Origin: an uncultured Pelagibacteraceae bacterium
GTDB lineage: Bacteria; Pseudomonadota; Alphaproteobacteria; Pelagibacterales; Pelagibacteraceae
Length of the DNA: 55,786 nt
Assembly: GCA_902595105.1 (NCBI GenBank)
Contig: CACJPA010000006.1
Location: forward strand, 1-55,786
Direction: 5' to 3'
The notes beneath the pieces are model-generated. The model was not told where the DNA came from, made no database searches, and worked only from the letters and a program-made list of their open reading frames with translations. The translations under genes were made by a program, and so were the position numbers. Position 1 is the stretch's first letter. Each line of letters opens with the position of its first letter. Positions 12,234-31,805 of the stretch are shown here, piece by piece.

Positions 12234-13391
12234 TTATTTCAATATTTTCTTTATATCTTTTGTTAGGAATAAACTTGGCTTTTTGCATGTAGTTTTAATT
12301 ATTTGTGGTTTATTTGTCTTACATGCATTCATTGTTGATTGAATAATATCTAAAACATGAAGAGATAGTTCTCCATTACATTTATTTATTTTTTTATTTT
12401 CAATTGAATAAGCCATTTCCGCTAGTCCTGCCCCACGGTAATTTGCATTTGTAGGAGACTCGTTTGCTCTAGAACTCTGTGATCTTATGTTGATTTTACC
12501 AAGATGCATTTTATTTGTTTTATATTCTTTCCAAGGGTCCCCTAGTTTATTGCAAACATAAACAGATCCGCCAAACATATTTGGGTCTGGTACAATCATG
12601 GAACCTTTGCTTCCATATAATTCAATGTGATTTCTTTGATGTGCAATAACATCGAATGATAAAGTTAATCTTATAATTGTGCCATTCTCAAACTGGATTG
12701 TTGATAAATATGTTGTTGGACATTCAACTTTAAAAGTTTTATTTTTTTTAGGTCCTATTCCAATTATTCTTCTCTTTACTCCTTCCATTATGCTGCCAGT
12801 TACTTTTTTAGCTGGTCCCAATAAATTCACTAAAGCTGTTAGATAGTAAGGTCCCATATCTATAACTGGACCACCTTCTTTTTTAGCAAACCAGGGTTCT
12901 GGATTTGGATGATAGGATTGAACACCTGGGAATGCAAAAATTGCATTTCCTAATGAAATTTTACCTAATATATTTTTTTCTACTAACTCTTTTGATTTTT
13001 GAATTCCACCACCTAAAAAAGTATCAGGTGCATTTCCTATATAAAGTTTTTTCTTATTCGCGATTTTAACGAGATCTAAACCATCTTTAAAATTAATGGC
13101 CATAGGTTTTTCAGAATAAACATGTTTACCATGCAATAATGATTGCTTAGCAACTTGATAATGAGCTTTTGGAATGGTTAGATTTAATATGATTTCTATT
13201 TCTTGATCTTTTAATAAATCTTTTACTGACAATGCTTTAATTTTGTATGCCTTTGCACATTTAATTGCATTAGTGTGATTAATATCAGCACATTTAATTA
13301 TCTTTATATTATTAAAATATTTTTCAGCTCTAAAGTATGTTTCGGAAATATGACCACATCCTATAAGACCTACTTTGTATACTTTGTTCAT
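12234..13391 (-). CDS. Gfo/Idh/MocA-family oxidoreductase
   Basis: The 385-residue protein begins with the Rossmann loop GLIGCGHISETYF, has the family's EKP motif (YSEKPMA, ~94-100) and a C-terminal sheet domain with GSKGSMIVPDP. MocA-family enzymes use tightly bound or free NAD(P) to oxidise sugars, inositols or their derivatives. The GGPVIDMGPYYLTALVNLLGP segment, with D and Y in the position of the substrate His region, is of the subtype often annotated as dehydrogenase or oxidoreductase of unknown substrate. The gene is 6 bases after iolD, so one of its likely substrates is an inositol-like or keto-sugar compound. Confidence 0.82.
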   Translation of the reverse strand: MNKVYKVGLIGCGHISETYFRAEKYFNNIKIIKCADINHTNAIKCAKAYKIKALSVKDLLKDQEIEIILNLTIPKAHYQVAKQSLLHGKHVYSEKPMAINFKDGLDLVKIANKKKLYIGNAPDTFLGGGIQKSKELVEKNILGKISLGNAIFAFPGVQSYHPNPEPWFAKKEGGPVIDMGPYYLTALVNLLGPAKKVTGSIMEGVKRRIIGIGPKKNKTFKVECPTTYLSTIQFENGTIIRLTLSFDVIAHQRNHIELYGSKGSMIVPDPNMFGGSVYVCNKLGDPWKEYKTNKMHLGKINIRSQSSRANESPTNANYRGAGLAEMAYSIENKKINKCNGELSLHVLDIIQSTMNACKTNKPQIIKTTCKKPSLFLTKDIKKILK

Positions 13392-13397
13392 AAAGGA

Positions 13398-15242
13398 TTA
13401 AATACCTTGTCTTTGCTTGCTTTTTCCTTCTTTGTAAAGTTTTAAAGCTTCTTCATTTTCTTTAGTATTTGGAATTTCTAAAGTTGGGCTATCCCAAAAA
13501 GATGAACCTTCGACCCATTTGTAAGCATGGGTTTTAATTGAAATAACATAAGTCACATCAGATGCTTTGGCTCTTTTAAATGCAGCTTCAAGATCTGAAA
13601 TTGAAGTAACGTGTTCAGATTTTGCGCCCATACTTTCTGCATGTTTTGCAAAATCTACGTCTACTAAACCAGGTGTATTAGAACTCTTTAATAAGTTGTT
13701 GTACTCTTTACCACCTTTGAATAATTGCAATCTATTAATAACTGCAAAGCCTCCGTTGTCACAAACAATTATAATCAATTTATTTTTTGTGATTACTGAA
13801 GAATAAATGTCAGTATTATTTAATAGATAAGATCCATCTCCTACAAAAGAAATTACTTCTTTATCTGGATTAGCCATTTTAATTCCTAAAGCTCCAGATA
13901 TTTCATAACTCATACAACTAAAACCCCATTCTGTTTCGTGAGTATTGAGTTCTCTTGGTCTCCAAACTTGAATTACTTCACCTACTAAACCTCCTGCAGC
14001 TGTAACCGCAATATCAGTTGGATCAGAATTTCTATAGATTGCACCAATTGCTTGAACATAACTTGGGACTTCCTGATTGGTTGGAGCACTCTCTTTATCT
14101 ATATGTTCATTCCATGACTTAAGCTCAGTTTGAGATTTTTTATTCCAATCTTCTCCTGCTTTCCAATCACCTAAAGCTTGAGAAAGTTCAGTCAACGAAA
14201 CTTTTGCATCTCCAACGACTGCTTGAGCTAAGTGTTTATTGGCATCATATCTTGATACATTGATAGAAACTAATTTGAAATTTTCGTTTTCAAAGTTTGC
14301 CCATGATCCAGTTGTAAAATCAGCAAGTTTTGTTCCAACAGCAATAGCAAGATCAGTTTCTTTAGCTAATGTGTTTGTGTTTTTTCCTCCCAGTCCTCCA
14401 ATTTGACCTGCAAAATGCGAATGGTCTCTCTTCATTGTTGAATAACCCATTACAGTTTGTGTAACTGGAATGTTATGTTTGATTGCAAACTGACTTAATT
14501 CTTCCATTGCATCTGAATAAAAAACTCCACCTCCAGATATTATGATTGGATTTTTTGAAGATTTAATTTTCTTAGCTGCTTCTTTAATTTGAAACTCATC
14601 TGGTCTTGGTCTACGAATTGTGTGAACTCTTTCTTGAAAAAATTCCTCTGGATAGTCAAAAGTTTGTCCTTGGATATCTTGACTTAACGCAATACAAGCA
14701 GGTCCACAATCAGCAGGATCTAACATTGTTTGAACTGCTATTGGAAATGATTGAATTATTTGTTCAGGTCTTGTGATACGATCAAAATATCTTGTAACTG
14801 GTTTAAAAGCATCGTTTGCAGTTGTGCTTGGATTGTTAAAATGTTCAACTTGTTGCAATACTGGATCTGGCATTCTATTTGCATAAGTATCACCAGGTAA
14901 AAATAAAATTGGCAATCTATTACTCATTGCAACTGCTGCTGCTGTAACCATGTTGGTTGCACCTGGACCAACCGACGATGTTGCTACAAAAATTTGTTGT
15001 CTTCTCTTAGCTCTAGCATAACCTATGCCAGTTAAAGCCATATTCTGTTCATGATGACCTCTATAAGTTGGTAATTCTTTTTGATTTTCTTCAAGTGCCT
15101 GGCCTAAACACGCTACATTTCCGTGTCCAAAAATTCCAAAGACACCAGGAAAGAGTGGTTCTTTTTTACCATTAATTAATATTTTTTGAGCAATCAAATA
15201 TTTAACGATTGCATGCGCACAAGTAAGAGTAATTTTTTTCAT
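13398..15242 (-). CDS. iolD: Trihydroxycyclohexane-1,2-dione hydrolase, IolD-like (ThDP enzyme)
   Basis: A 614-residue thiamine-diphosphate enzyme with PYR, central and PP domains. The conserved Glu that activates thiamine lies in YRGHHEQNMAL (~residue 61-71), and the ThDP/Mg motif GDGSYLLNN...DNGGFAVINRLQ lies near residue 460-505. EWGFSCMSYEISGALGIKMA is characteristic of IolD rather than acetolactate synthase. IolD opens the ring of 3D-trihydroxycyclohexane-1,2-dione to 5-deoxyglucuronate in myo-inositol catabolism. iolE and iolG homologues are present 17 kb away, but iolB, iolC and iolJ are not visible here. It starts an operon with the MocA and XylB-like genes and is divergent from the aldehyde dehydrogenase. 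Confidence 0.85.
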   Translation of the reverse strand: MKKITLTCAHAIVKYLIAQKILINGKKEPLFPGVFGIFGHGNVACLGQALEENQKELPTYRGHHEQNMALTGIGYARAKRRQQIFVATSSVGPGATNMVTAAAVAMSNRLPILFLPGDTYANRMPDPVLQQVEHFNNPSTTANDAFKPVTRYFDRITRPEQIIQSFPIAVQTMLDPADCGPACIALSQDIQGQTFDYPEEFFQERVHTIRRPRPDEFQIKEAAKKIKSSKNPIIISGGGVFYSDAMEELSQFAIKHNIPVTQTVMGYSTMKRDHSHFAGQIGGLGGKNTNTLAKETDLAIAVGTKLADFTTGSWANFENENFKLVSINVSRYDANKHLAQAVVGDAKVSLTELSQALGDWKAGEDWNKKSQTELKSWNEHIDKESAPTNQEVPSYVQAIGAIYRNSDPTDIAVTAAGGLVGEVIQVWRPRELNTHETEWGFSCMSYEISGALGIKMANPDKEVISFVGDGSYLLNNTDIYSSVITKNKLIIIVCDNGGFAVINRLQLFKGGKEYNNLLKSSNTPGLVDVDFAKHAESMGAKSEHVTSISDLEAAFKRAKASDVTYVISIKTHAYKWVEGSSFWDSPTLEIPNTKENEEALKLYKEGKSKQRQGI

Positions 15243-15336
15243 AATTGGGTTTATTTTTTTTATGTATAATGTTTATATATATTTATATTTATAAATTAAA
15301 AAACCCAACTTAGTAAACCTTAAAAAAATAAAAATT
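15243..15336. promoter_or_regulatory. Divergent promoter region flanked by an 8-base inverted repeat
   Basis: The 94-base spacer between iolD (minus) and the aldehyde dehydrogenase (plus) is almost pure A/T except for TTGGGTTT (15245-15252) and its exact complement AAACCCAA (15301-15308), 48 bases apart. Each arm lies near one gene start. The GGG/CCC cores stand out from the AT background, suggesting paired operator half-sites for a regulator that controls both directions. Confidence 0.45.
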
Positions 15337-16779
15337 ATGTATAGCAAATTTGGACAATTCATTGATGGAAAATGGCAAGAAGCAGAAAAAAAAGAAACAT
15401 ATGATGTAATCAATCCTGCAACAGAAGAAGTGATTGGAAAAGCATCAAAAGCATCTTCGGCAGATGTACAAAAAGCATTAAAGTCAGCTGAGAAAGGTTT
15501 GGAAGTTTGGAAAAACACTGCGCCGTGGCAAAGAGCATATGTGCTTAGAAAAATTGCTGATCTAATGAGAGAAAAAAAAGATGTTATTGCAAAATGGTTA
15601 ACTCTTGAAGTTGGTAAACCTCTTACTGAAGCAGTTGGTGAAGTTGGTGGTGGAGCTGATATTTTTGAATGGAATGCAGAGGAGACAAAAAGGATCTATG
15701 GTCAAACTCAACAAAGTAGATTTCCAGATACAAGAGTTCATGTTTATTATCAGCCAGTAGGAGTTGTTGCAGCTTTAGTTCCATGGAATTTTCCAATAGT
15801 TTTAGCTTCAAGAAAAATTTCTACTGCTTTAGCAGCAGGTTGTTCTGTTATATGTAAACCAGATGTAATTACTCCTGGAGCTGTTATGGAATTAGTTAAT
15901 ATTTGTAAAGAAGCTGGAGTGCCAGATGGTGTAGTTAGTCTTTTATCGGGTGATCCTGCTGAAATATCAAATGAATTAATGGAATCTGATATTATTAAAA
16001 AAGTTTCGGTCACTGGATCTACTAGAGTTGGAAAAATTATTTTAAAAAAAGCAGCTGATAAAGTTCAAAGAGTTACAATGGAACTAAGCGGACACTCACC
16101 TTTTATTGTATGTGAAGATGTGGATATGAACAAAGTAGCCGACATAGCAATAACTGGTAAGTTTAGAAATAATGGACAAGTTTGTATTTCTCCAAATAGA
16201 TTTTACATCCAAGAAAATAGAAAAGATGAGTTTGTTAATGCTTTCATGGAAAGAGCAAAAAAATTAAAAATTGGTAACGGTATGGATGAAGGTGTAGATC
16301 TAGGACCTTTAACTACCGCTAAGAGATTAGAAGAAATAGAAAAATTAGTTGATACTACAAAAAAAGAAGGTGCTAAAGTATTGATGGGTGGACAACGACC
16401 TTCTGGTTTCAACAAAGGATATTATTATGAGCCAACGGTATTTGATGATGTAAAAGATAATTTTACAATAATGAAAGAAGAACCTTTTGGCCCACTAGTT
16501 CCGATTTTAACTTTTAAAACTTTTGATGAAGTAATTGAAAGAGCAAACGATAATGATTTAGGATTATGTAGCTATTTGTACACAAATTCTATGGATAAAG
16601 CTCACATTGGATCAGAAAAATTAGAGTCTGGATGTGTAGCAGTTAATACCGGTGTTGTTGCAATAGCTGAAGCACCTTTTGGAGGTATAAAGCAAACAGG
16701 TTATGGACGTGAAGGTGGTTCTGGGGCAATAAAAGATTACCTTAATGTAAAATACACACACATGGGATTAAAAATATAA
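15337..16779 (+). CDS. NAD(P)-dependent aldehyde dehydrogenase
   Basis: The 480-residue protein has PWNFP (~149-153), the VTGSTRVG cofactor loop (~223-230), ELSGHSP around the catalytic Glu (usual form ELGGKSP), the nucleophile Cys in NNGQVCISPNR (~284-294) and the EEPFGPL end motif. It belongs to the succinate-semialdehyde/2-oxoglutarate-semialdehyde/glycolaldehyde dehydrogenase group. The HpcH/HpaI aldolase gene follows after 3 bases, so the enzyme likely oxidises the aldehyde that the aldolase releases (for example glycolaldehyde or glyceraldehyde); this is inferred from context. Confidence 0.88.
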   Translation: MYSKFGQFIDGKWQEAEKKETYDVINPATEEVIGKASKASSADVQKALKSAEKGLEVWKNTAPWQRAYVLRKIADLMREKKDVIAKWLTLEVGKPLTEAVGEVGGGADIFEWNAEETKRIYGQTQQSRFPDTRVHVYYQPVGVVAALVPWNFPIVLASRKISTALAAGCSVICKPDVITPGAVMELVNICKEAGVPDGVVSLLSGDPAEISNELMESDIIKKVSVTGSTRVGKIILKKAADKVQRVTMELSGHSPFIVCEDVDMNKVADIAITGKFRNNGQVCISPNRFYIQENRKDEFVNAFMERAKKLKIGNGMDEGVDLGPLTTAKRLEEIEKLVDTTKKEGAKVLMGGQRPSGFNKGYYYEPTVFDDVKDNFTIMKEEPFGPLVPILTFKTFDEVIERANDNDLGLCSYLYTNSMDKAHIGSEKLESGCVAVNTGVVAIAEAPFGGIKQTGYGREGGSGAIKDYLNVKYTHMGLKI

Positions 16780-16782
16780 AAA

Positions 16783-17577
16783 ATGAGAAAAAATAAAATT
16801 AAACAAATGATGAAAGACGGCAAATCCGTCATTAATGGTTGGTGTGCAATTCCAAGTACTGCATCTGCAGAGGCAATGGCTCATCAAGGTTGGGACTCAT
16901 TAACAATAGACATGCAACATGGGTTGGTTGATTACAGTAATGCTCTTCCAATGCTTCAAACAATTTCAACAACAGACGTAACTCCACTTGCTAGAGTTAA
17001 TTGGAATGAACCAGGTCAAATAATGAAAATTTTAGACGCGGGTTGCTATGGAATTGTTTGTCCAATGGTAAGTAACAGAAAAGAAGCTGAAAATTTTGTT
17101 CAAGCTTGCATGTATCCACCTGATGGCTATAGAAGTTTTGGTCCAGTAAGAGGCTTAATTTACGGTGGTGCAGATTATGCAGATCACGCTAATGAGGAAA
17201 TTCTAAAACTGGCAATGATAGAAACAAAAGAATCTTTAGAAAATTTAGACGAAATAATGTCTACACCAGGTGTTGATGGTATTTATATTGGGCCTGCAGA
17301 CTTAAGTTTAGCAATCGGTGAAAAACCTGGATTTGATCGAGCTGAAACAACAAAAGCTTATTCTGAAATTTTGAGAATTCTAGAACATGCAAAGAAAAAT
17401 AATATTTTTGCTGGAATTCACAATGGTACAACTGAATACGCAACAAAGATGATTGAAAAAGGTTTTGATTTTGTAACAATAGCCTCTGATTTGAGAGCTT
17501 TAAGTGCTGGTGCAAAAGCAACTGTAGATAAGATGAAAGGTTCTTTGTCTAAAAAAGACAACGACGCTACTTATTAA
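16783..17577 (+). CDS. HpcH/HpaI-family aldolase (2-keto-3-deoxy acid aldolase)
   Basis: The 264-residue class II aldolase has IDMQHGLVDY (~46-55; catalytic His), LARVNWNEPGQIMKILDAGCYGIVCPM, the metal Glu in MIETKESL and YIGPADLSLAIG with a metal Asp. Members split 2-keto-3-deoxy sugar acids into pyruvate and an aldehyde. Coupled to an aldehyde dehydrogenase (3-base gap), it fits a non-phosphorylating sugar-acid route such as Dahms-type cleavage. The gene ends overlapping the convergent PanB-like gene by 4 bases. Which keto acid is cleaved is unknown. Confidence 0.88.
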   Translation: MRKNKIKQMMKDGKSVINGWCAIPSTASAEAMAHQGWDSLTIDMQHGLVDYSNALPMLQTISTTDVTPLARVNWNEPGQIMKILDAGCYGIVCPMVSNRKEAENFVQACMYPPDGYRSFGPVRGLIYGGADYADHANEEILKLAMIETKESLENLDEIMSTPGVDGIYIGPADLSLAIGEKPGFDRAETTKAYSEILRILEHAKKNNIFAGIHNGTTEYATKMIEKGFDFVTIASDLRALSAGAKATVDKMKGSLSKKDNDATY

Positions 17578-18389
17578 TCAAGTTGATTTAAAAATTCTTC
17601 AAACTGACTTTTATCTAAATTAGATGATTGTTTCTTACCTGGAAATTTTCCAGTCATAGAATCTTTTTTAAATGCTTTAAGTGCTTTAATTCTCTCAACT
17701 TTAATTTCATTTCTAAGTTTTAATAAGTTTCCATAAGCTTTAGAGTGTCTTGGAGGATTTTCGGTGTCACCACAAATATCTTCCATAAATAAATACATCA
17801 CATCTGCATTTCTTCCAGAACCTAATGAGACAGTAACAATATCTGTTCGTTTAGAAATTTCTCCCATTACATTTTCAGGTATTACTTCACACTCAGCAGA
17901 AAAAGCTCCTGCATCCTCTAATCTTTTAAATTTTTGAAATAACTCATAAGCCTCATTTGCGGTTTTTCCTACTGCTCTTAGTCCACCTATCCAAGTAGAT
18001 TTTCTTGGAACTAATCCTAAGTGACCCATCACAGGTACATCTTCTTTTGCTAACATTTCTACTATGTCCATACTTCTTGGTGTCATCACAGCATCAGCAC
18101 CATTTTCTAAAGCTTTAAATGCTCCACGCATAATGTCATCTGCTGTAACAAATTCATTCAAAACTAAGGCTGCAGTTAAAAAAAGATTTTTAGATCCTTC
18201 TCTTACTGGAATAACATTTTTGGCGTTAGAAATAATCATATCAAAGCCAGCTGTTTCTGCTGCAGTGGCTTCATCAACAGTATTTGCAGTAACTTGAGTA
18301 AATTTTTTTTTGCCTTTAGCCGTTTTTAAATCACCTACTGTAGTTGATCTTTTTGCTGGTTTTGCCGCCCATGTGTATACATTCTTCAT
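17574..18389 (-). CDS. PanB-superfamily protein (ketopantoate hydroxymethyltransferase-like)
   Basis: The 271-residue protein looks like PanB of the PEP-mutase/isocitrate-lyase fold: ETAGFDMIISNAKNV, VPVMGHLGLVPRKS (PanB usually GHIGLTPQ), LEDAGAFSAECEVIPENV (PanB LE.AGA..VLE.VP). However the PanB GIGAG motif is SLGSGRNADVMY, and the C-terminal part differs. True PanB condenses formaldehyde from methylene-THF with 2-oxoisovalerate; this divergent copy in a catabolic region more likely handles another 2-keto acid. The start codon forms a TAATG junction with the winged-helix gene upstream. With the PanE-like gene at 19896-20840 it makes a PanB/PanE-like pair, but panC is not seen here. Confidence 0.7.
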   Translation of the reverse strand: MKNVYTWAAKPAKRSTTVGDLKTAKGKKKFTQVTANTVDEATAAETAGFDMIISNAKNVIPVREGSKNLFLTAALVLNEFVTADDIMRGAFKALENGADAVMTPRSMDIVEMLAKEDVPVMGHLGLVPRKSTWIGGLRAVGKTANEAYELFQKFKRLEDAGAFSAECEVIPENVMGEISKRTDIVTVSLGSGRNADVMYLFMEDICGDTENPPRHSKAYGNLLKLRNEIKVERIKALKAFKKDSMTGKFPGKKQSSNLDKSQFEEFLNQLD

Positions 18390-18802
18390 TAAACACCTCT
18401 ATAAAGAATATCTCTTCGATCGATAAATTCCTCAAAAGTCTTGATAGTGACAACCGATGGTAAAATAAAAATTGACCTTTTGTCCTTTTCGTTTCTAATA
18501 ATTCTAAAATAACCCTTTTTGATTGCTGTATCGATATAAACATTAGAAGTTAAATAAGATTTCTCTATAACCCTTAAAAGTTCATTTTTAGTGATAGATT
18601 TATTTTTATAATAAGCAAGCATTACCATATGCAACATGATCCAATGCTGAGGAGTAAGAGAAAACCAATTTAACAAATCATTTGCTAACCTTCCCTCAAA
18701 ATCTCCAAGAGAAATTTCAGCTAATTTAATTCTCTTTTGAGTTAATTTTGGAATTCTCTTCTGTTCTTCAAAATTTTTTGGATACTTAAACTGTCTTTTC
18801 AT
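18389..18802 (-). CDS. Putative winged-helix (MarR-like) regulator
   Basis: I do not recognise a named family. The 137-residue protein has LTPQHWIMLHMVML (~50-63), SITKNELLRVIEKSYLTS (recognition helix region), AIKKGYFRIIRNEKDKRS (wing), the pattern of a winged helix-turn-helix with MarR-like order. It is basic and has no membrane segment. Translation is coupled by TAATG to the PanB-like gene, so it may regulate that gene or the divergent operon at 19896-23657. No paralogue is in the window. Confidence 0.55.
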   Translation of the reverse strand: MKRQFKYPKNFEEQKRIPKLTQKRIKLAEISLGDFEGRLANDLLNWFSLTPQHWIMLHMVMLAYYKNKSITKNELLRVIEKSYLTSNVYIDTAIKKGYFRIIRNEKDKRSIFILPSVVTIKTFEEFIDRRDILYRGV

Positions 18803-18830
18803 TTAAATAAACTTAAACTTATTAAGTTTT

Positions 18831-19808
18831 CTATTCAATAATATTTTTACTTAATAGCTCTTTATAAATGTTATTTACTCTATGCACTTCTGAAGCAGTA
18901 TTAAAATATCCCTCATATTGTATTTCGTCTGGTGTTACATCAAAATGATAATGACCAGCATCTTTATCATCGTCATAAGAATGAAAATGCGTATGTTCAC
19001 CTGACTCTCTTAAATTCAGTTCTCCTCCTGTAGGATCTCCAGTCCAAAGAACTGTATAACATTGTAATTTTGGACCAACAGGTTCATAAAATTGAAGAAA
19101 ATCTTTTACGCACTTCATTTGTTTTGGGTCATAGTATTCATGTTTAATGTCTTTATAATCTGGTTGAACATGAGATCTTACTTTTCCTTCTAAAATTCTA
19201 AACACACCTGCAATAGCAATATGTTCATTTTCTTTAAGATTTAAATTACTTGATAATGAAGACCTCATTGCTTGCGGGAGTGAACCTTGATCTCCTGATC
19301 TTCCTTTGATTTTTATTCTTATTACTTTACCTTGTTTACCATCTGTATAATAAATATTTCCAAGTCCTCCATGTTTTCTTGCAGTATATTTTTCAACAAT
19401 ACATTTTTTATCAGGACTTACTCTTGCAATTATAGATCTAGACTCATCAGTAATTAAATTTTCATTAATTACCAATTCTCCACAATGACCATCCAAACAC
19501 GACATTGCACCAGACCCAGCACCTAAAGCGTAAGATTTTTCTGATCCAATCATTTTGGAAATTTCTTGGTAATCAAATTCAGCACCAATAAAATTAGGAT
19601 CATGCATGTATGGCTCACCACCAACATCTATTATTTTTTGATTACCGCTTATTCCTTCAGATGGACAATCCCACTCTCGAAGATTAGGACAATCCACAAC
19701 TTCTACTTCAACATTTTTAAAATTTTTAGATAAACCTTTTTTTAATGCATCTGCTACATCTTCAAGTGAATGATTTGTGAAAGTCCCCTTTTCTATTTTT
19801 AATTGCAT
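18831..19808 (-). CDS. DUF1907 protein, homologue of animal C11orf54 (PTD012)
   Basis: This 325-residue protein matches my memory of human C11orf54/PTD012 over most of its length: VDCPNLREW..., an early VVDCP block, ALGAGSG (C11orf54 LGAGAG), VEKYTARKH (LEKYS), GKVIRIKIKGRSG and, most telling, EHTHFHSYDD...AGHYHFDVTPDEIQYEGYF (residues ~271-299; human EHTHFFSRHGEGGHYHYDTTPD). The two His groups (H272/H274 and H286/H288) fit the metal site of this putative ester hydrolase. A lactonase role after the sugar dehydrogenases is possible but unproven. It is divergent from the PanE-like operon, with a near-palindrome in the 87-base spacer. The family is far better known in eukaryotes than in bacteria. 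Confidence 0.82.
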   Translation of the reverse strand: MQLKIEKGTFTNHSLEDVADALKKGLSKNFKNVEVEVVDCPNLREWDCPSEGISGNQKIIDVGGEPYMHDPNFIGAEFDYQEISKMIGSEKSYALGAGSGAMSCLDGHCGELVINENLITDESRSIIARVSPDKKCIVEKYTARKHGGLGNIYYTDGKQGKVIRIKIKGRSGDQGSLPQAMRSSLSSNLNLKENEHIAIAGVFRILEGKVRSHVQPDYKDIKHEYYDPKQMKCVKDFLQFYEPVGPKLQCYTVLWTGDPTGGELNLRESGEHTHFHSYDDDKDAGHYHFDVTPDEIQYEGYFNTASEVHRVNNIYKELLSKNIIE

Positions 19809-19837
19809 AATGTAAATAAGCTATAATTTATTTTGCA

Positions 19838-19871
19838 TATTGTCTATAGATAATATATATAATTTCTATAC
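19838..19871. promoter_or_regulatory. Near-perfect palindrome and TATAATTTCTATAC motif in a divergent spacer
   Basis: The 87-base spacer between the DUF1907 gene and the PanE-like gene holds TATTGTCTATAGATAATA (19838-19855), an 18-base palindrome with one mismatched pair, followed at 19858-19871 by TATAATTTCTATAC. The latter is nearly the same as motifs upstream of pdxA2/tctC and of dctP. Both could be operator sites of a common regulator. Confidence 0.45.
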
Positions 19872-19895
19872 ATAAATAATTTTAAAAAGGTAACG

Positions 19896-20840
19896 ATGAT
19901 AAATAAAGATTTAAAAGTAGCTGTATTAGGTGCAGGTGCTATGGGATGCCTGTTTGGAGGATTGCTGGCTGAAAAAGGATTAAATGTAACTTTAATTGAT
20001 GTTTGGAAAGAACATGTCGATGCAATTAACAAAGATGGTTTAAAAATGGATGGTCATGGTGGAGATCGTATAATTAAAGTTAAAGCTACTTCGGATCCAT
20101 CTTCGTTAGATAAAATGGATGCAGTAATTGTTATGTGCAAAGCAACAGCATTAGAACCAGCATTAAATAGTATAAAAAATATTATTGGCGAAAAAACAGT
20201 CTTCATGTCTTTTCAAAATGGTATTGGTCATGAGGCAATAATTCAAAATATCGTTGGAGGTGAAAAAGTAATCGGTGGAACAACAACACAGGCTTCAAAT
20301 ATTTTAGGACCAGGTCATATAATGAACCACGGTGCATTACCTTCATGGATTGGTGAATATGAAGGAGGAATAACAGAAAGAATTTCAGAAATAGCTGATA
20401 CTTTTACTGCACATAATTTAGAAATGATTGCAGCTGAAGATGTAAAAAAAAGAAAATGGATGAAACTTTTTGCTCTGACTGCAATTGGTCCTCTTTCAGC
20501 TATCTTTGATCTACATCACACCGATCTTTACGTAAATAATAAAGCTAACGATGTATCGAGAGGACTAGGTAAAGAAATCATTTTAGAGACGAGAGAAGTA
20601 GCGCTTGCTGATGGAGTTAATGTTTCTGAAGATGAATGTCTATTTATGTTCAATAAAATTGTAGATTCTATGCAAACAAACAAATCTTCAATGGCTTTTG
20701 ATGTTCAGTACAAAAGAAAAACAGAAATTGATTTTATTAGTGGTGCTGTTTCAAAAATTGGAAAAAAACATGGAGTAAAAACACCTTTAAATGATCTTAT
20801 GTATAAAATGATTAAGGTTAAAGAAGGTATGTATAGTTGA
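19896..20840 (+). CDS. PanE/ApbA-family 2-ketoacid reductase (ketopantoate reductase-like)
   Basis: The 314-residue protein has the GAGAMG loop (residues 12-17), SFQNGIGHEA (PanE: QNGLGN), the catalytic Lys region KRKWMKLFALTAIGPLSA (PanE: W.K...N..NPLTAL, here with changed Asn positions) and the C-terminal SSMAFDVQYKRKTEIDFISG (PanE: SS...D...GR.TEID). It likely reduces a 2-keto acid with NADPH. The changes at the Asn positions argue against true ketopantoate. It heads an operon: its stop overlaps the next gene's ATG (TGATG). Confidence 0.78.
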   Translation: MINKDLKVAVLGAGAMGCLFGGLLAEKGLNVTLIDVWKEHVDAINKDGLKMDGHGGDRIIKVKATSDPSSLDKMDAVIVMCKATALEPALNSIKNIIGEKTVFMSFQNGIGHEAIIQNIVGGEKVIGGTTTQASNILGPGHIMNHGALPSWIGEYEGGITERISEIADTFTAHNLEMIAAEDVKKRKWMKLFALTAIGPLSAIFDLHHTDLYVNNKANDVSRGLGKEIILETREVALADGVNVSEDECLFMFNKIVDSMQTNKSSMAFDVQYKRKTEIDFISGAVSKIGKKHGVKTPLNDLMYKMIKVKEGMYS

Positions 20841-21709
20841 TGCTTAAAATCAATCGATTAAAAAAAATTAAAAGTAATTTTCCTGTACTAGTTGGAGACA
20901 AAATTGTCGAAAAAAATAAATGTAATTTATTAATTGATGAGATTAGTAAATCTAAAGCCTTTGACGACATGATTATGGGTGGTCGAAGTAGAATTAATAA
21001 AGGCTCAAAAAATTTTAATAATTATATTAAATCTTCAAATAATTCTGCAAAACTCTTCAAACTTTTTAATAGCAAAACATTTTATAAAAAAATTGAAAAT
21101 CTTTTTTCTAAAAATTTTAAAGATGGATCTTGGATAAACAGTCACAAGCCAAAAATATTTAATCAAAAAAAATTTACCATTAAAAAGAAATTAAATTCAA
21201 GTGAATTAAAAAAATTATTAGGAAACAATTATACTAACCCAAAAGTTAATTTAGATATTGATTTTTCAGTTTCTAAGGGAGGATACAGATTGCGTCCTCA
21301 TAGAGATGACATCACAAGGTTGTACAATTTCTTAATTTATCTAACGGATATTCCAAAAAAAAATGGAGGATCGCTAACAATTTATAGAAAAAAGTCTAAG
21401 AAAAATTTAAGAAAAAGTTTCAGAAGATTTCCAAAAATGAGTGAATTGGAAATAGTCAAAGCATTCACCCCAAAGAAAGGAACAGTGGTGTTTTTTCAAT
21501 CTACACCAAATTCTTATCATGGGGTTAAGCGTTTTATAGAAAAAAACTGTCCAAAAAGATTTTTTATTTATGGAAGTTATGCTCTCAATAAACCAGTTAT
21601 TTGGAATTATAAAGGAACTGCTTACTATCCGCACATCATCAGTACCAAAAAAAGAATGTTAACTTCTTTTCATGATGCAAACTATTTAACAACTGCTCCT
21701 AAGAATTGA
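20840..21709 (+). CDS. 2-oxoglutarate/Fe(II) oxygenase, prolyl-4-hydroxylase-like
   Basis: I start it at ATG 20840, which overlaps the PanE-like stop (TGATG), rather than the TTG at 20837. The 289-residue product has HxD ligands H154/D156 (LRPHRDDITR), the distal His H227 (NSYHGVKRF) and a 2OG-binding Arg (R240). It is Lys-rich and lacks a signal. It likely hydroxylates a soluble metabolite or protein. It sits in an operon with a PhyH protein and two dehydrogenases; the substrate is unknown. Confidence 0.75.
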   Translation: MLKINRLKKIKSNFPVLVGDKIVEKNKCNLLIDEISKSKAFDDMIMGGRSRINKGSKNFNNYIKSSNNSAKLFKLFNSKTFYKKIENLFSKNFKDGSWINSHKPKIFNQKKFTIKKKLNSSELKKLLGNNYTNPKVNLDIDFSVSKGGYRLRPHRDDITRLYNFLIYLTDIPKKNGGSLTIYRKKSKKNLRKSFRRFPKMSELEIVKAFTPKKGTVVFFQSTPNSYHGVKRFIEKNCPKRFFIYGSYALNKPVIWNYKGTAYYPHIISTKKRMLTSFHDANYLTTAPKN

Positions 21710-21740
21710 TATTGTTAATAAATTCTACTAGGTTCTATTA

Positions 21741-22724
21741 ATGGCAAATAATCTACAAAAGAAATTATTTGAACAAGGGTATTTGAGAGTAAAAAATGTT
21801 CTTAACTATCAAAGAGATTTAAAGCCAATCCTTAATGACATGGAATTTGTAATGGATTGCTTAATCCAAAAATTTGCAAAAAAAAAGGATGTAAAAAAAG
21901 TTCTTAATTTAGATTTTAAAAAAAAATATTCACATATATCAAAATTAAAAATTGATGATTTAGATCAATATTTTAATACGAGATTACCAAGAGATCACGT
22001 TAAGAAAGACAGTGATTATTTTGCTACTCAATCTTTATGGAATTTGATTACTAATAAAAACATTTTAGATGTTGTTGAAAAAATTTTAGGAAAAGAAATC
22101 ATGTCTAATCCAGTGCAAAATACTAGAATTAAACAACCTGAAAAAAAATTACCAAAAGGTTCGGTATTTGATGGTTTAAGTGGAAGAACACCTTGGCATC
22201 AGGATGCTGCTGTTCTTAATACTAAAGGACAAAAATTAACTGACATGGTTACTGTATGGATACCTTTTACAAAAACTACAAAAAAAAATGGGTGCATGAT
22301 TACTGTTAAGAAAATTAATAAAATGGGATTATTAAATCATATTGCTGGTTATAGAGGTCAAGTAGAAATTAAAGACAGTAAATTACTAGATGAAATGAAG
22401 CATATTCACTTAGAAGCAAATGTTGGGGATGTAATTCTTTTACACAAACATTCAATTCATTGTTCTCTGCCTAACAGATCAAATGATTTTAGAATAAGTG
22501 CAGACCTTAGATATAACGTAGCCGGCCAACCTTCTGGAAGAGATCCGTTACCAAATTTCTATGTAAGAAGTAAAAATAAAAAAAACCTTAAAATTCAGAA
22601 TTTTAAACAATGGTTGGCTCTTTGGGAAAAAGCAAAAGAAAAGTGTATCCCTCGTAAATACGCTTTTAAATATCCTCTTCCTACTTTTAAAACAAATAAA
22701 AGAGATCTTTCAAAATTATTATAA
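21741..22724 (+). CDS. Phytanoyl-CoA dioxygenase (PhyH) family oxygenase
   Basis: A 327-residue PhyH-family protein: H153/D155 in TPWHQDAAV, distal His at H240 (KHSIHCSLPN), Arg at 251 (FRISADLRY). The VTVWIPFTKTTKKNGCM and SGRDPLPNF blocks are seen in related marine PhyH proteins. It follows another 2OG oxygenase after 31 bases and is 12 bases before a hydroxyacid dehydrogenase, so hydroxylation followed by oxidation of the new hydroxyl group is a plausible sequence. Confidence 0.82.
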   Translation: MANNLQKKLFEQGYLRVKNVLNYQRDLKPILNDMEFVMDCLIQKFAKKKDVKKVLNLDFKKKYSHISKLKIDDLDQYFNTRLPRDHVKKDSDYFATQSLWNLITNKNILDVVEKILGKEIMSNPVQNTRIKQPEKKLPKGSVFDGLSGRTPWHQDAAVLNTKGQKLTDMVTVWIPFTKTTKKNGCMITVKKINKMGLLNHIAGYRGQVEIKDSKLLDEMKHIHLEANVGDVILLHKHSIHCSLPNRSNDFRISADLRYNVAGQPSGRDPLPNFYVRSKNKKNLKIQNFKQWLALWEKAKEKCIPRKYAFKYPLPTFKTNKRDLSKLL

Positions 22725-22736
22725 AAAAAATTAATT

Positions 22737-23657
22737 ATGAAAATTTTAATAACTGAATTTATTAATAAGAATAGTTTAGACGAATTAAATAATACTTTTG
22801 AAATCAAATTTGATGAAAAGCTTTGGGAAAAAAAAGAAGAACTTAAAGAAATCATTAAAGATTATGATGGTTTAATTGTCAGAAATAAAACTCAAGTAAA
22901 TAAAGATATTTTATCTAATGCTAATAATTTAAAATTTATAGGAAGATTGGGTGTTGGTTTAGACAACATTAATACTGAATTTTGTAAAACCAAAAATATT
23001 CATGTCCAACCTGCAACTGGCATGAACGCAGACTCTGTAGCTGAGTATGTGATTTCATCCTCGATGTCTTTGATAAAAAAAATTCCTATGTTTCATCATG
23101 GAACGGTCAAAGGTGATTGGCCTAGAACAACTATTAAATCTGCTGAAATAAATGGAAAGTGTATTGGAATAGTAGGTTTTGGTACAATCGGTAGAAAGGT
23201 AGCTGACTATAGTTTGAAAAATGGCCTAAATATTTTGGCTTATGATCCTTACATTAAAAAATTAGATGATAATGAAAAAAATTATAAATTATCTTCATTG
23301 GAAGATGTATTTAAAAATGCAGATATTATTTCTTTGCACTTACCATTAACAGAAGAGACTAAAAATTTAATCAACAAGTCTTCATTCTCTAAAATGCAAA
23401 AACAGCCAATAATAATTAATACTTCTAGAGGTAGTGTTGTAAATGAGAATGATCTTATAGATGCTTATAATCAAAATATAATTTCAGGATTTGCATTAGA
23501 TGTGTTTGAAAATGAACCTATTAAAAAAGATTTATACGAAAGAATAACTTCTGAAATGAATTGTATTTTAACTCCTCATATTTCAGGTGTAACAACAGAG
23601 TCAAATATAAGAGTTAGTAATTTTATAGTTAAAAAGGCGATAGATTTTTTTAAGTAA
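22737..23657 (+). CDS. D-2-hydroxyacid dehydrogenase (SerA/GyaR family)
   Basis: The 306-residue protein has the NAD loop GIVGFGTIGRK (~143-153), the catalytic Arg in NTSRGSVV, Glu in FENEP and His in LTPHISG. It oxidises or reduces D-2-hydroxy acids with NAD(H). It lacks the ACT regulatory domain of full-length phosphoglycerate dehydrogenase, so it is a catabolic or generic enzyme. It ends overlapping the convergent MocA gene by 8 bases and closes the PanE-2OG-PhyH-dehydrogenase operon. Confidence 0.86.
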   Translation: MKILITEFINKNSLDELNNTFEIKFDEKLWEKKEELKEIIKDYDGLIVRNKTQVNKDILSNANNLKFIGRLGVGLDNINTEFCKTKNIHVQPATGMNADSVAEYVISSSMSLIKKIPMFHHGTVKGDWPRTTIKSAEINGKCIGIVGFGTIGRKVADYSLKNGLNILAYDPYIKKLDDNEKNYKLSSLEDVFKNADIISLHLPLTEETKNLINKSSFSKMQKQPIIINTSRGSVVNENDLIDAYNQNIISGFALDVFENEPIKKDLYERITSEMNCILTPHISGVTTESNIRVSNFIVKKAIDFFK

Positions 23658-24763: not shown

Positions 24764-26101
24764 TTAATCAATTGTTAATCCACTTGGTACTTTTTCTGGT
24801 TTACCGAGTGGTCTTTGATTTCCACTTTTACCAGTTAGAGATTTTAAAAAAGATACTAATTGGTCAATTTCTTTTTCACTCAAATCTATTGGTTTGATAT
24901 CTATACTTGAAATGATTCTATCCTGTTCTCTTTTGTCTGAAAAAGTTACAAAATCAATTTGTTCTAGCCATGGAGCCTTTGGTAAATTTGCATATTGAGG
25001 TTTCCAATTTTTATTCATAGCTACTGGATTTAAATGATGTTTAATTATGCCTTTAAGTGTTGGATAAGCACCATTATGGCCATAAGGTGCTGTTAAAGAA
25101 ACATTTCTTAGCGCAGGTGTCTTAAATTTATACATGTCATTCACATCATCTGTTTCAACCATTCTACCAACATCGCGCGCATAAGGATCAAAAGGTCTAG
25201 TTCTACCTGGTCCAAATTGTGGAATGCCTATTGAATGAAATTTTTGATCAGACAATAATGATCCAGAATGACATGAGCTGCAATTAGCTTTGCCATAGAA
25301 TAAATTCATACCAGCAATCTGATTTAAATTTAAAGCTGTTTTATTTCCATTTAAATATTCATCAAATGGAGAGTCAAATGATGTCCATTCATGAATTTCA
25401 AAAGCTGCAATTGAGTTTACTATATGTGTGATATTTATATCTAAAGCGTTATCTACATCATCAAAAGCATTTTTAAACATTTCAACATATTCAGGAACTC
25501 CTCTTATTCTATGAGTAATTACAGGCCAAACTCTATCAATTCTCATACTGTCTTTACCAACTTTTGACACAAGTCCTATAATTTCATTTTCACCTGGATT
25601 TCCAGCCATTTCGAATTGTCTTGTCATTGGAAATAAAGCTTGTACAGCAACTATATTATCAAGACCTTTTGGAAGCAGTTCTTGTGCTGGGGTATTAAAA
25701 CCATTACCAAATATGTCAGATTTAGTCACTCTTCCATCGTGAAGTAGTGTTGTAATATCTTTAAATCCTAAATTCCATAATGCTAGAGCATTTCTAGGAA
25801 TACGTTTTTTAATTTTATCATCTCCTGATCCAGCTGTTCTTTCTAATCCAATACCATGTCCACCTTCACCAATTCCTAATGAAAGTCCATCAGACCCTCC
25901 TAGATCATGGCTATGACAAGTTGCACAAGCAATATTACGATTGGCTGATAAAATTTTATCATGAAATAAAAATCTTCCAATTTTAACTTTTTCCATATCA
26001 ATTTTATGAAAATCATTACTTGTCAAAGGTTTTGGTAATTCAATTGAATATGTTTTGTTTGCTGAAATTAAAAATGGAATTATAAATATTAATATTTTTA
26101 T
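24764..26101 (-). CDS. Dihaem cytochrome c peroxidase (MauG/CcpA family)
   Basis: The protein has two c-type haem motifs, CATCH (about 65 residues from the start) and CSSCHSG, with the RPFDPYARDVGR, KFKTPALRNVSLTAPYGHNGAYPTL and DQLVSFLKSLTG blocks of bacterial dihaem peroxidases. These reduce H2O2 or oxidise partner proteins in the periplasm. A signal-like peptide KILIFIIPFLISANKTYS is encoded from 26098, but no ATG, GTG or TTG precedes it in frame; the codon at 26101 is ATA. The nearest ATG (25996) would delete the signal. The longer frame to 26527 is an antisense shadow of the Sel1 gene. I give 26101 as the most sensible start, with a possible unusual ATA initiation. The product is about 445 residues. 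Confidence 0.75.
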   Translation of the reverse strand: MKILIFIIPFLISANKTYSIELPKPLTSNDFHKIDMEKVKIGRFLFHDKILSANRNIACATCHSHDLGGSDGLSLGIGEGGHGIGLERTAGSGDDKIKKRIPRNALALWNLGFKDITTLLHDGRVTKSDIFGNGFNTPAQELLPKGLDNIVAVQALFPMTRQFEMAGNPGENEIIGLVSKVGKDSMRIDRVWPVITHRIRGVPEYVEMFKNAFDDVDNALDINITHIVNSIAAFEIHEWTSFDSPFDEYLNGNKTALNLNQIAGMNLFYGKANCSSCHSGSLLSDQKFHSIGIPQFGPGRTRPFDPYARDVGRMVETDDVNDMYKFKTPALRNVSLTAPYGHNGAYPTLKGIIKHHLNPVAMNKNWKPQYANLPKAPWLEQIDFVTFSDKREQDRIISSIDIKPIDLSEKEIDQLVSFLKSLTGKSGNQRPLGKPEKVPSGLTID

Positions 26102-26572
26102 ATGTTGAGATACTTTTTTATAATTTTTTTTATTCCATCTATAGTTTTTGCAGAAATTGAAAATGCTAGAGATTTGATGGAAGCTGGAAAATTTCAAGAA
26201 GCTATGGAAGAGCTGATGCCAGCTGCTCGATCTGGAAACGCTGATGCTGAAGAGCTTATTGGAATTATGTATGCAATGGGTCTTGGAGTTGAACAAGACG
26301 ATGTTAGAGCTTTTGAATGGTATCTTAGATCTTCGATGAAAGGTCATCCTGGTGCTCAATCGGGTGTTGGATGGTATTATGAAGTCGGTAGAGGACTCCC
26401 TGCTCCTGATCTTGTTCGAGCTTACATGTGGTATGGTTTGTCTGCTATTGGAGGTGATCCCGATGCTGCGATTTCTCAAGAGGAAGTGATTAAAAAAATG
26501 ACTCCTGAACAAATTGAAAAAGCGCATATACTTATTAAAGATTACAAAGCTTGGATTTATCCGTTTAGGTAA
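26102..26572 (+). CDS. Sel1/TPR-like repeat protein, exported
   Basis: The 156-residue protein starts with a signal peptide (MLRYFFIIFFIPSIVFA, cleavage near residue 17), followed by about three Sel1-like helical repeats, e.g. AEELIGIMYAMGLGVEQDDVRAF, and RAYMWYGLSAIGGDPDA. Such proteins are periplasmic scaffolds of unclear function. Its ATG at 26102 directly abuts the presumed first codon of the divergent peroxidase gene, so both promoters must lie inside the neighbour. No good ribosome binding site is seen. Confidence 0.78.
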   Translation: MLRYFFIIFFIPSIVFAEIENARDLMEAGKFQEAMEELMPAARSGNADAEELIGIMYAMGLGVEQDDVRAFEWYLRSSMKGHPGAQSGVGWYYEVGRGLPAPDLVRAYMWYGLSAIGGDPDAAISQEEVIKKMTPEQIEKAHILIKDYKAWIYPFR

Positions 26573-29751: not shown

Positions 29752-30717
29752 ATGAGTAATAAAAAGAAGATTCTAGTTATCCAAAAAGTTCATGATAAAG
29801 GCATGGAATTAATTAATAACCATCCTGATTTTGATGTGGAAGTAACTGACGATGTTTCAGTAGAAAATTTAAAGACTAAAATAAAAGATTGTGATGGCGC
29901 TTCAATTAGAATAGCAAAACTACCAAGTGAGGTAATTAACGAGGCAAAAAATCTTAAAATAATTTCTAGACATGGTGTTGGCTACGATAATATTGATTTA
30001 AAAACAGCCAAAGAAAGAGATATAAAAATTGCTATTACAGCTAATGCAAATGCAGTTACAGTTGCTGAGCATGTAATGTTTGTTTTGCTAAATATTGCAA
30101 AGAGAAGAGAGCTTTATCATACGACAGTTAAAGAAGGTAACTTTAAGGACCGAAATAAATTACCTAAAACTATTGAAGTATGGAAAAAAAATTTCCTAAT
30201 TATGGGATTTGGTAGAATAGGTAAAGCACTTATTAAACGGTGTTTGGGATTTGAAATGAATGTATTCGTCTACGATCCATTTGTAGATAAAGACACAATA
30301 GAAAAGCTTGGTGGAAAAAAAGTTGATAATCTTGAAGAGGCAGTAAAAACAATGGATGTAATATCTCTACATATGCCTTTAACAGAAAAAACAGAAAATC
30401 TTATTAATTATGATTTACTTAAAACGATGAAGAAAAATTGTATCATCATTAATGCTGCTAGAGGTGGAATTATTCACGAAGAAGATCTTGATAAGGCATT
30501 AAATGAAGATTTAATTTTTGGAGCAGGAATTGATGTATTTAAACAAGAACCACCCGAAATTGACAATCCTCTTTTAAAAAATGAAAAAGTTTATTTAAGT
30601 CCACATACTGCAGCATTTACTGATGAATGTATGACAAGAATGGGTGTAGAAACAATTCAAAATATAATTGATTATTTTGATGATACATTAGAAAAATCAA
30701 AAATTGTAAGACTGTAG
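29752..30717 (+). CDS. D-2-hydroxyacid dehydrogenase (phosphoglycerate dehydrogenase-like)
   Basis: The 321-residue protein has the NAD loop MGFGRIGKA (~150-158), the catalytic Arg in NAARGGII, Glu in FKQEPP and His in LSPHTAA, and lacks an ACT domain. It oxidises or reduces a D-2-hydroxy acid. Divergence from the TRAP operon suggests that the imported solute may be a 2-hydroxy acid oxidised by this enzyme; this is inference. It is more like the catabolic SerA-type enzymes than the copy at 22737-23657. It ends at a long hairpin before iolE. Confidence 0.86.
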   Translation: MSNKKKILVIQKVHDKGMELINNHPDFDVEVTDDVSVENLKTKIKDCDGASIRIAKLPSEVINEAKNLKIISRHGVGYDNIDLKTAKERDIKIAITANANAVTVAEHVMFVLLNIAKRRELYHTTVKEGNFKDRNKLPKTIEVWKKNFLIMGFGRIGKALIKRCLGFEMNVFVYDPFVDKDTIEKLGGKKVDNLEEAVKTMDVISLHMPLTEKTENLINYDLLKTMKKNCIIINAARGGIIHEEDLDKALNEDLIFGAGIDVFKQEPPEIDNPLLKNEKVYLSPHTAAFTDECMTRMGVETIQNIIDYFDDTLEKSKIVRL

Positions 30718-30720
30718 TAA

Positions 30721-30779
30721 GAGATTTAATCTAAAAGTTAAGCTTTATTATTTATTGAAAGTTAACTTTTGTAAATCTC
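30721..30779. terminator. Long nested hairpin between convergent genes, overlapping the iolE stop
   Basis: GAGATTTA (30721-30728) pairs with TAAATCTC (30772-30779), and inside it AAAAGTTAA (30733-30741) pairs with TTAACTTTT (30762-30770): two stems of 8 and 9 bases in series. It covers the 44-base gap and the last codons of iolE, so it can end transcripts from both sides. Confidence 0.65.
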
Positions 30780-31664
30780 AATACCACTAAGATTTAAAGT
30801 TTCAGTTAAATACTTGTATCCTATCTTTGCATACTCAAATGGGTTTGCTTTTGCAGGATCTTGTTCCGCCTCTACCACTAACCATCCAGAATAATTTTTT
30901 TCTTTTAACACATCGAACAAAGGCTTGTAATCAATACATCCATCACCTGGAACTGTAAATGCACCCTCTAAAAAGGCTCCTCTAAAACTTAAATCCTCTT
31001 TTAAAGATTTTTCTAAAACGCTTTTTCTAATATCCTTGCAATGCATATGAATTAATCTTTCACTAAAATCATTTAATATTTTTAAAGAGTCTCCCTGAGC
31101 AAACAACATGTGACCAGTATCTAATGTAAGTTTTACACTATCATGAGTGTTCTCAAGTAATCTTACTGTATCCTCTTCAGTCTCTATTACGGTTCCCATA
31201 TGATGATGATAAGCAAGCGGCATACCCTCGTCTTCAAGATATTTTCCCATTTCTGAAATTTTTTTATAATATTTTTTAGACTCTTCGAGATCCATTTGAG
31301 GTCTTGTAGATAATTTTCGATTTGGGTCTCCTTGAATAGAGCCAGAAACTTCAGCAAAAACCATACAAGGTGAATTACAATCTTTAAAAAGTTTTAACTG
31401 ATCTTGAATTAAATTTTTTTCTTCATCAACACTATTTGTTCTTAAATTAGCTCCATACCAACCTGAGCAAAGATTTAATTTAAACTCAGTAAGTTTCGGA
31501 ATTAATTCTTCTGATTTTTTTGGAAATTTACCACCAGATTCAATTCCAATAAATCCTGCCTGACTAGCTTCAGACAAACATTGTTCTAAAGAAGTGTCAC
31601 CACCCAATTCTGGCATATCATCATTACTCCATGCAATTGGTGCTATTCCTAATTTTACTGACAT
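30762..31664 (-). CDS. iolE: Inosose dehydratase-like sugar epimerase/isomerase (IolE)
   Basis: This 300-residue TIM-barrel of the xylose isomerase-like superfamily has the IolE hallmark start GIAPIAWSNDDMPELGGDTSLEQ, then GFIGIESGGKFP and SGWYGANLR. Metal and catalytic residues lie in YHHHMGTVIET, LTLDTGHMLFA, HMHCKDIR and VVEAEQDP. IolE converts 2-keto-myo-inositol to the trihydroxycyclohexanedione that IolD cleaves. It is divergent from iolG with a shared promoter region. iolB and iolC are not in the window, so the pathway is incomplete here. Confidence 0.86.
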   Translation of the reverse strand: MSVKLGIAPIAWSNDDMPELGGDTSLEQCLSEASQAGFIGIESGGKFPKKSEELIPKLTEFKLNLCSGWYGANLRTNSVDEEKNLIQDQLKLFKDCNSPCMVFAEVSGSIQGDPNRKLSTRPQMDLEESKKYYKKISEMGKYLEDEGMPLAYHHHMGTVIETEEDTVRLLENTHDSVKLTLDTGHMLFAQGDSLKILNDFSERLIHMHCKDIRKSVLEKSLKEDLSFRGAFLEGAFTVPGDGCIDYKPLFDVLKEKNYSGWLVVEAEQDPAKANPFEYAKIGYKYLTETLNLSGIEIYKS

Positions 31665-31805
31665 ACAAAAATTTATTAAAAAAGTTAAATGGATATTTAA
31701 ATGATGATGTTATGTGCATCAAGAAAATTATATTTTTAATTTATGTTTAATTCATCATTAAAAAATGTTTCTTGATTTTGTTTTTTAATTCTGTTCTATA
31801 TTCTT
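31665..31805. promoter_or_regulatory. Divergent iolE-iolG promoter region with nested inverted repeats
   Basis: This 141-base spacer carries ATCAAGAAA (31718-31726) and its exact complement TTTCTTGAT (31768-31776), plus AATGATGA (near 31700) against TCATCATT (near 31754). The symmetric layout between two divergent starts suggests operators shared by iolE and iolG, but no local repressor gene is seen. Confidence 0.4.

Follow-up and report, generated by a model that had tools for sequence, protein, structure and literature searches.

The described bacterial pathway of myo-inositol catabolism proceeds through IolG, IolE, IolD, IolB, IolC, IolJ, and IolA, and a genome survey treats iolB, iolC, iolD, and iolE as the core genes, three of which are required to count a genome as an inositol user (PMC9430895). 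Two further described proteins resemble parts of the locus reported here. Human C11orf54 (PTD012), a protein of the DUF1907 family, which is also present in other bacteria, was shown in 2025 to be a 3-dehydro-L-gulonate decarboxylase; it has a zinc site of three histidines, its fold is akin to that of acetolactate decarboxylase, and its earlier label as an ester hydrolase derived from activity on p-nitrophenyl acetate (PMC12435205, a commentary). The hydroxyketoacid aldolase of Sphingomonas wittichii (SwHKA) has been crystallized with hydroxypyruvate (PMC10099721). We analyzed a stretch of 55,786 nucleotides (the window) from an uncultured Pelagibacteraceae (SAR11) bacterium, contig C6 of a 1.0 Mb genome of 64 contigs that is 70.8% complete; its near identity to named Pelagibacteraceae contigs places it in SAR11. 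An earlier note had proposed that seven genes at 17574–23657 form an undescribed pathway. We find that six of them (17574–22724), including a gene for a DUF1907 protein, form a unit that is conserved in SAR11 and lies in a variant inositol locus. This setting, absent from the earlier note, is the most informative clue, and the unit is more aptly called an accessory module of that locus, with a function that we predict from sequence.

A six-gene unit inside an inositol locus

All seven open reading frames (ORFs) are present, and both their arrangement in two divergent groups and their close packing were upheld. We assigned families with Pfam and NCBIfam profiles and their curated cut-offs. The minus-strand group comprises the genes for a PanB-like protein (17574–18389; PF02548, 120 bits), a winged-helix (SarA/MarR-like) regulator, so labeled tentatively (18389–18802), and the DUF1907/C11orf54-family protein, a probable Zn-dependent beta-keto acid decarboxylase (18831–19808; PF08925, 203 bits). 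The plus-strand group encodes a PanE/ApbA-family 2-keto acid reductase or 2-hydroxy acid dehydrogenase (19896–20840), the 2-oxoglutarate (2OG)-Fe(II) oxygenase Ox1 (20840–21709; 2OG-FeII_Oxy_3), the PhyH-type 2OG-Fe(II) oxygenase Ox2 (21741–22724; PF05721), and the 2-hydroxyacid dehydrogenase HADH (22737–23657; 2-Hacid_dh). The ratio of nonsynonymous to synonymous substitution rates, obtained by comparing the window genes with other SAR11 loci (at most seven; for HADH three and for the winged-helix gene five), was 0.015–0.148, indicating that the seven genes are under purifying selection.

We then compared named Pelagibacteraceae loci that carry a DUF1907 relative. Of 149 such loci the best 80 were used, a set hence biased to the window's own clade; denominators are the loci with enough flank on the relevant side. 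The winged-helix gene was found in 79/79, the PanE-like gene in 72/72, Ox1 in 67/68, and Ox2 in 68/68 of these loci. The PanB-like gene was present in 69 of 77, with a gap of 2–5 bp to the adjacent gene for an HpcH/HpaI aldolase (HpaI), and absent from eight, leaving 3–118 bp between the winged-helix gene and HpaI. By contrast, HADH was found in just 35 of 67 loci and the adjoining GfoB in 34 of 64. Downstream of Ox2, most loci follow one of three arrangements, namely HADH–GfoB–MauG–TRAP (tripartite ATP-independent periplasmic) transporter, a Gfo–isomerase–ABC (ATP-binding cassette) transporter set, or direct continuation to HADH2 and IolE, and single loci deviate from all three. Thus, HADH belongs to a variable insertion (GfoB/MauG/DctPMQ) and not to the core module: the co-occurrence expected of the whole set held for six of its seven members. 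The window segment 7386–36576, from the TctA/TctC/PdxA genes to moaA/moaC, acts as a variable island, and its catabolic sets differ among SAR11 genomes.

A search of 101 genomes (the window's own and 100 relatives) found DUF1907 in 12. The winged-helix gene was absent from four of these (G004, G044, G047, and G054) and the PanB-like gene from two (G038 and G044), which makes both dispensable members of the set. DUF1907 had no match among the plasmids or viral contigs searched, and the window's own genome was the only positive among 385 genomes sampled from its class and 398 from its phylum, two sets that overlap, so that these samples offer no non-SAR11 bacterial neighborhood for comparison.

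The surroundings of the unit are those of an inositol locus, and the span originally proposed was too narrow, as the locus also takes in 13398–17577 and 29752–32807. On one side lie, on the minus strand, GfoA, a Gfo/Idh/MocA dehydrogenase (12234–13391), and the adjoining IolD (13398–15242; TIGR04377, 802 bits against a cut-off of 715), followed on the plus strand by an aldehyde dehydrogenase (ALDH; 15337–16779) and HpaI (16783–17577). The ALDH is closest to succinate and alpha-ketoglutarate semialdehyde dehydrogenases. On the other side, past the variable insertion, are a further 2-hydroxyacid dehydrogenase, HADH2 (29752–30717, plus strand), closest to 3-phosphoglycerate dehydrogenases, IolE (30762–31664, minus strand; TIGR04379, 399 bits against 290), and IolG (31806–32807, plus strand; TIGR04380, 400 bits against 355). 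Among the named loci, HpaI was present in 74/74, ALDH in 71/71, and IolD in 67/67.

IolD exceeded its cut-off in 20 of the 101 genomes and occurred as a contig-end fragment in one more (G050), giving 21, and all 12 DUF1907-bearing genomes were among these 21. Nine IolD genomes lack DUF1907. In one of them, G005, the contig ends at the PanB-like gene; in the remaining eight (8/8), HADH2 comes immediately after ALDH and HpaI. In the seven fetched module regions that show HADH2, the six-gene set sits between HpaI and HADH2 (7/7). The set therefore looks inserted into an older ALDH–HpaI–HADH2 operon. The single-contig SAR11 genome G307, rated 99% complete, contains IolD and has the order GfoA–IolD / ALDH–HpaI–HADH2 / IolE / IolG. 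A small gene that follows HADH2 in the eight module-less loci was considered as a functional substitute for the module and rejected, since by eye it encodes a short membrane-anchored protein and not an enzyme.

The divergent spacer and the module proteins

The DUF1907 and PanE-like genes diverge from a spacer of 86–88 bp in 78 loci, the core of which is nearly unchanged across them (39 distinct variants); at synonymous positions of the two flanking genes, 0.25–0.63 of sites differ (four named loci). Of two palindromic motifs reported earlier in this spacer, one is clear, the putative operator TATTGTCTATAGATAATA at 19838–19855, self-complementary at 16 of 18 positions. For the other, the sole further candidate found, ATAATATATATAAT at 19850, is AT-rich and weak. 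Part of the clear palindrome, TGTCTATAGATAAT, was present in 78 of the 80 named loci and was not found anywhere in the other fetched loci (977 kb). In all four genomes without the winged-helix gene, the spacer is shorter and TGTCTATAGATAAT is absent (4/4). G031 groups with these four by ALDH identity, yet it carries both the winged-helix gene and TGTCTATAGATAAT. The joint presence or absence of palindrome and gene speaks for binding of the palindrome by the winged-helix protein, which is probably an autoregulator of the divergent promoter. Its family label is tentative because the ORF had no Pfam match and matched the SarA-type NCBIfam profile TIGR01889 at 25.2 bits, below the cut-off of 62.6. 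An operator-like site in the IolD/ALDH spacer (13/18 matches) was discarded as not significant, its score being reached by 109 of 1000 shuffles.

The DUF1907 protein scores 202.8 bits against PF08925 (gathering score 25; positions 1–285 of 285). Its alignment with human PTD012 (1xcr) extends over 304 residues (E 5.9e-40) and matches the HTH...HYH motif, which is invariant in 20 SAR11 DUF1907 sequences and which we take to contain the three zinc-binding histidines. A beta-keto acid decarboxylase is thus our best guess: the protein is most likely a zinc enzyme of this kind, like human C11orf54, from which it differs in being bacterial and in being set in an inositol locus with oxygenases. This reading suits the protein better than the metal-dependent hydrolase proposed before.

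In the case of the PanB-like protein, the earlier assignment as a C–C bond enzyme was not supported. The protein is homologous to PanB over residues 62–251 of 271 and retains H136 and E181 (E. coli PanB numbering), but its 89.8 bits fall below the NCBIfam panB cut-off of 207.6. It has A74, M102, and P104 at the positions of E. coli D84, K112, and E114, and the segment holding D45 is deleted in a MAFFT alignment with SAR11 PanB. We take D45 and D84 to be the metal ligands of E. coli PanB, and K112 and E114 to be further residues of ketopantoate hydroxymethyltransferase (KPHMT). Because these residues, canonical in KPHMT for metal and ketopantoate, are missing, this KPHMT homolog cannot simply be taken for a C–C bond enzyme of the PanB type. 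A true PanB is encoded elsewhere in the genome (G000:C2, 303.6 bits), and on this ground we rejected pantothenate synthesis as the role of the module.

PanB-like paralogs occur outside the inositol locus (L114:7780–8595, L115:7753–8568, L116:7420–8229, and L117:1025–1834, in genomes G006, G041, G002, and G019). Those in G006 and G041 are divergent from a PhyH-like oxygenase gene (blastp, E 1.7e-6), and those in G002 and G019 have a same-strand oxygenase neighbor that is 61–62% identical to the PhyH-type protein encoded at 34708 in the window. A working link of the PanB-like family with PhyH oxygenases is suggested by this pattern, the one that we find most suggestive of the role of the protein. 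The window contains two PhyH-type oxygenase genes besides Ox2, at 1289–2137 and 34708–35547.

The PanE-like protein contains both the ApbA and the ApbA_C Pfam domains and exceeds the TIGR00745 cut-off (235.6 bits against 141). For Ox1, the ATG at 20840 is the most likely start and shares TGATG with the PanE stop; the protein is above the Pfam cut-off, and HRD and a later YHG are visible in its translation. In Ox2, H153, D155, H235/H237/H240, and R251 are invariant in 22 sequences, in keeping with an HxD...H facial triad. AlphaFold2 models of the PanB-like protein and Ox2 had low mean predicted local distance difference test scores (41.9 and 32.2). Farther along the window, a MauG-like ORF of 587 amino acids on the minus strand (24764–26572) overlaps with its start a plus-strand ORF of 156 amino acids by 426 bases; its true start is probably further downstream.

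IolB, IolC, and a proposed oxidative lower route

The SAR11 locus resembles the described inositol pathway in having IolG, IolE, and IolD above their cut-offs and differs from it in the next steps. We searched for IolB, IolC, IolE, and methylmalonate semialdehyde dehydrogenase (MMSDH, the IolA family) in 23 genomes, the 21 IolD-bearing ones and the IolD-negative G009 and G012. IolB was matched in none of the 23, nor in the closed genome G307; three positive-control genomes did match. IolC was above its cut-off in none of the 23, a search that left out G307, and weaker matches in 22 of them scored no higher than 99.7 bits (cut-off 300). Of the canonical inositol cluster, IolD, IolE, and IolG are therefore found, whereas IolB and, above its cut-off, IolC are not; ALDH, HpaI, and HADH2 lie in the locus. 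IolE was above its cut-off in 18 of the 23, the exceptions being G005, G013, and G050, whose loci are at contig ends, and the two IolD-negative genomes. MMSDH was above its cut-off in 17 of the 23, including both IolD-negative genomes, and is thus not specific to inositol.

Given that no IolB and no IolC above its cut-off were found, the route past 5-deoxyglucuronate is most likely oxidative. IolG, IolE, and IolD would open the ring to 5-deoxyglucuronate, which carries an aldehyde, a 2-hydroxyl, and a 4-hydroxyl. The ALDH would oxidize the aldehyde to give 5-deoxyglucarate, and HADH2 (or GfoA) would oxidize the 2-hydroxyl of the latter to a 2-keto-3,4-dihydroxy acid. A retro-aldol reaction of the HpaI type could then yield hydroxypyruvate and malonate semialdehyde, and malonate semialdehyde might be converted to acetyl-CoA via MMSDH. 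The nearest solved relative of the locus aldolase is SwHKA (205 bits over 246 residues, compared with 132 bits for 4-hydroxy-2-oxoheptanedioate aldolase chains). A variant with a dehydratase, from 5-deoxyglucarate through 4-hydroxy-2-oxoadipate to pyruvate and malonate semialdehyde, ranks lower because a dehydratase gene is not a constant feature of the locus; a gene judged by eye to be enolase superfamily-like was seen in 5 of 20 fetched regions.

HpaI-type aldolase genes were also seen beside IolG/IolD in two non-SAR11 alphaproteobacteria (G449, L144:2504–9633; G115, L164:7556–11553), with a short-chain dehydrogenase/reductase gene after IolD in each. In the unrelated alphaproteobacterium G449 (98% complete), IolD and IolG lie together with HpaI, a Gfo protein, and a 2-hydroxyacid dehydrogenase; IolB was unmatched.

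Competing explanations and significance

Our preferred reading, to which we give a probability of roughly one half, is that the six genes supplement a SAR11-type inositol locus with an oxidative lower route and act as a catabolic add-on under local regulation. Through the add-on, a sugar acid or cyclitol-derived acid of related, substituted structure would most likely enter the lower route. In line with the earlier note, a hydroxy or keto acid is a likely substrate; for its proposal of a branched or methylated hydroxy acid, the data speak neither for nor against. Ox1 and Ox2 would hydroxylate this substrate, the PanE-like enzyme would interconvert hydroxy acid and keto acid, the DUF1907 enzyme would strip the carboxyl group from a beta-keto acid, and the winged-helix protein would govern the divergent promoter by binding the palindrome at 19838–19855.

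Several observations weigh against this reading. The genes may be linked because of insertion into a variable island and not because they share a function, and, with the site in the IolD/ALDH spacer not significant, co-regulation of the add-on with the inositol genes is not established. In the alignment of the locus aldolase with SwHKA, the phenylalanine that contacts hydroxypyruvate is apparently a histidine in SAR11, by inferred numbering. G449 had neither an ALDH nor an IolE match within its 15.8 kb. A lack of IolB is not peculiar to SAR11: in the class sample, 22 of 55 genomes with IolD above its cut-off (16 of the 47 of good quality) had no IolB match at E <= 0.001. Among the 21 non-SAR11 IolB-negative genomes, HpaI near IolD was absent in 20, all except G449, four of these loci spanning only 3.1–4.1 kb. 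Of the 20 genomes with IolB above its cut-off, 19 were inspected; G115 alone shows HpaI next to IolD, and its IolB lies on a separate contig. Of 13 genomes with a sub-cut-off IolB, three were viewed; a relative of HADH2 was near IolD in 3/3 and HpaI in 0/3. Other solutions thus exist, and the absence of IolB does not prove a route through HpaI.

In a rival explanation, the six genes form a self-contained catabolic operon that serves a different marine compound, such as a hydroxy acid with a methyl group or a branch, and only happen to lie in the variable island of the inositol genes. The stretch from TctC/PdxA to moaA is variable, with its three arrangement types after Ox2, and G002 (72% complete, no IolD above the cut-off) carries other genes there; the six genes have a regulator and a putative operator of their own; and PanB-like paralogs adjoin other PhyH-like oxygenases outside the inositol locus (L114–L117). 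We nevertheless hold such an operon to be possible but doubtful: an independent operon would be expected at other sites occasionally, and the module was confined to IolD-bearing genomes (12/12), with HpaI as neighbor in all 74 named loci that had enough flank and 2–5 bp from the PanB-like gene in 69. That the DUF1907 and PanE-like proteins carry out the known conversion of L-gulonate to L-xylulose, by decarboxylation of 3-dehydro-L-gulonate in a bacterial glucuronate/gulonate branch, draws on the activity of the human family member (PMC12435205) and the 304-residue alignment (E 5.9e-40). It seems improbable, since none of the six genes encodes a 3HCDH-family dehydrogenase by best Pfam match, the PanE-like protein giving just a weak 3HCDH_N match, and since two oxygenases and the PanB-like protein would be left unexplained. 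Still less credible is a biosynthetic module that makes a small hydroxylated metabolite or a pantoate-like compound. Membership in the PanB and PanE families and the presence of two oxygenases, as in tailoring pathways, would fit it, but the true PanB is encoded elsewhere, the PanB-like protein is without the KPHMT residues, no ligase or acyl carrier was found among the window genes scanned, and the neighbors are catabolic.

The reading of the six genes as an add-on to the inositol locus can be extended to an undescribed non-phosphorylating oxidative inositol route in SAR11 and a few other alphaproteobacteria (5-deoxyglucuronate to 5-deoxyglucarate to 2-keto-5-deoxyglucarate to hydroxypyruvate plus malonate semialdehyde), with the DUF1907 module as a regulated decarboxylating branch for a modified inositol, such as an O- or C-methyl inositol. 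We offer this extension tentatively, as a conjecture that may well fail. No description of the module or the locus was found among the titles and abstracts listed in our literature searches, in agreement with the earlier note, which knew of no named pathway with this set.

Few groups of marine organisms are as abundant as SAR11, and what these bacteria feed on is known only in part. If the proposed route is correct, an inositol pathway without the IolC kinase step would exist, and surveys that require three of iolB, iolC, iolD, and iolE, the criterion cited above (PMC9430895), would overlook SAR11 inositol users. A defined candidate pair of operator and regulator is now at hand. The locus also places the C11orf54 family, to which a function in humans was assigned only in 2025, in a bacterial genetic context, and, if our reading holds, this family of decarboxylases would gain a bacterial pathway.

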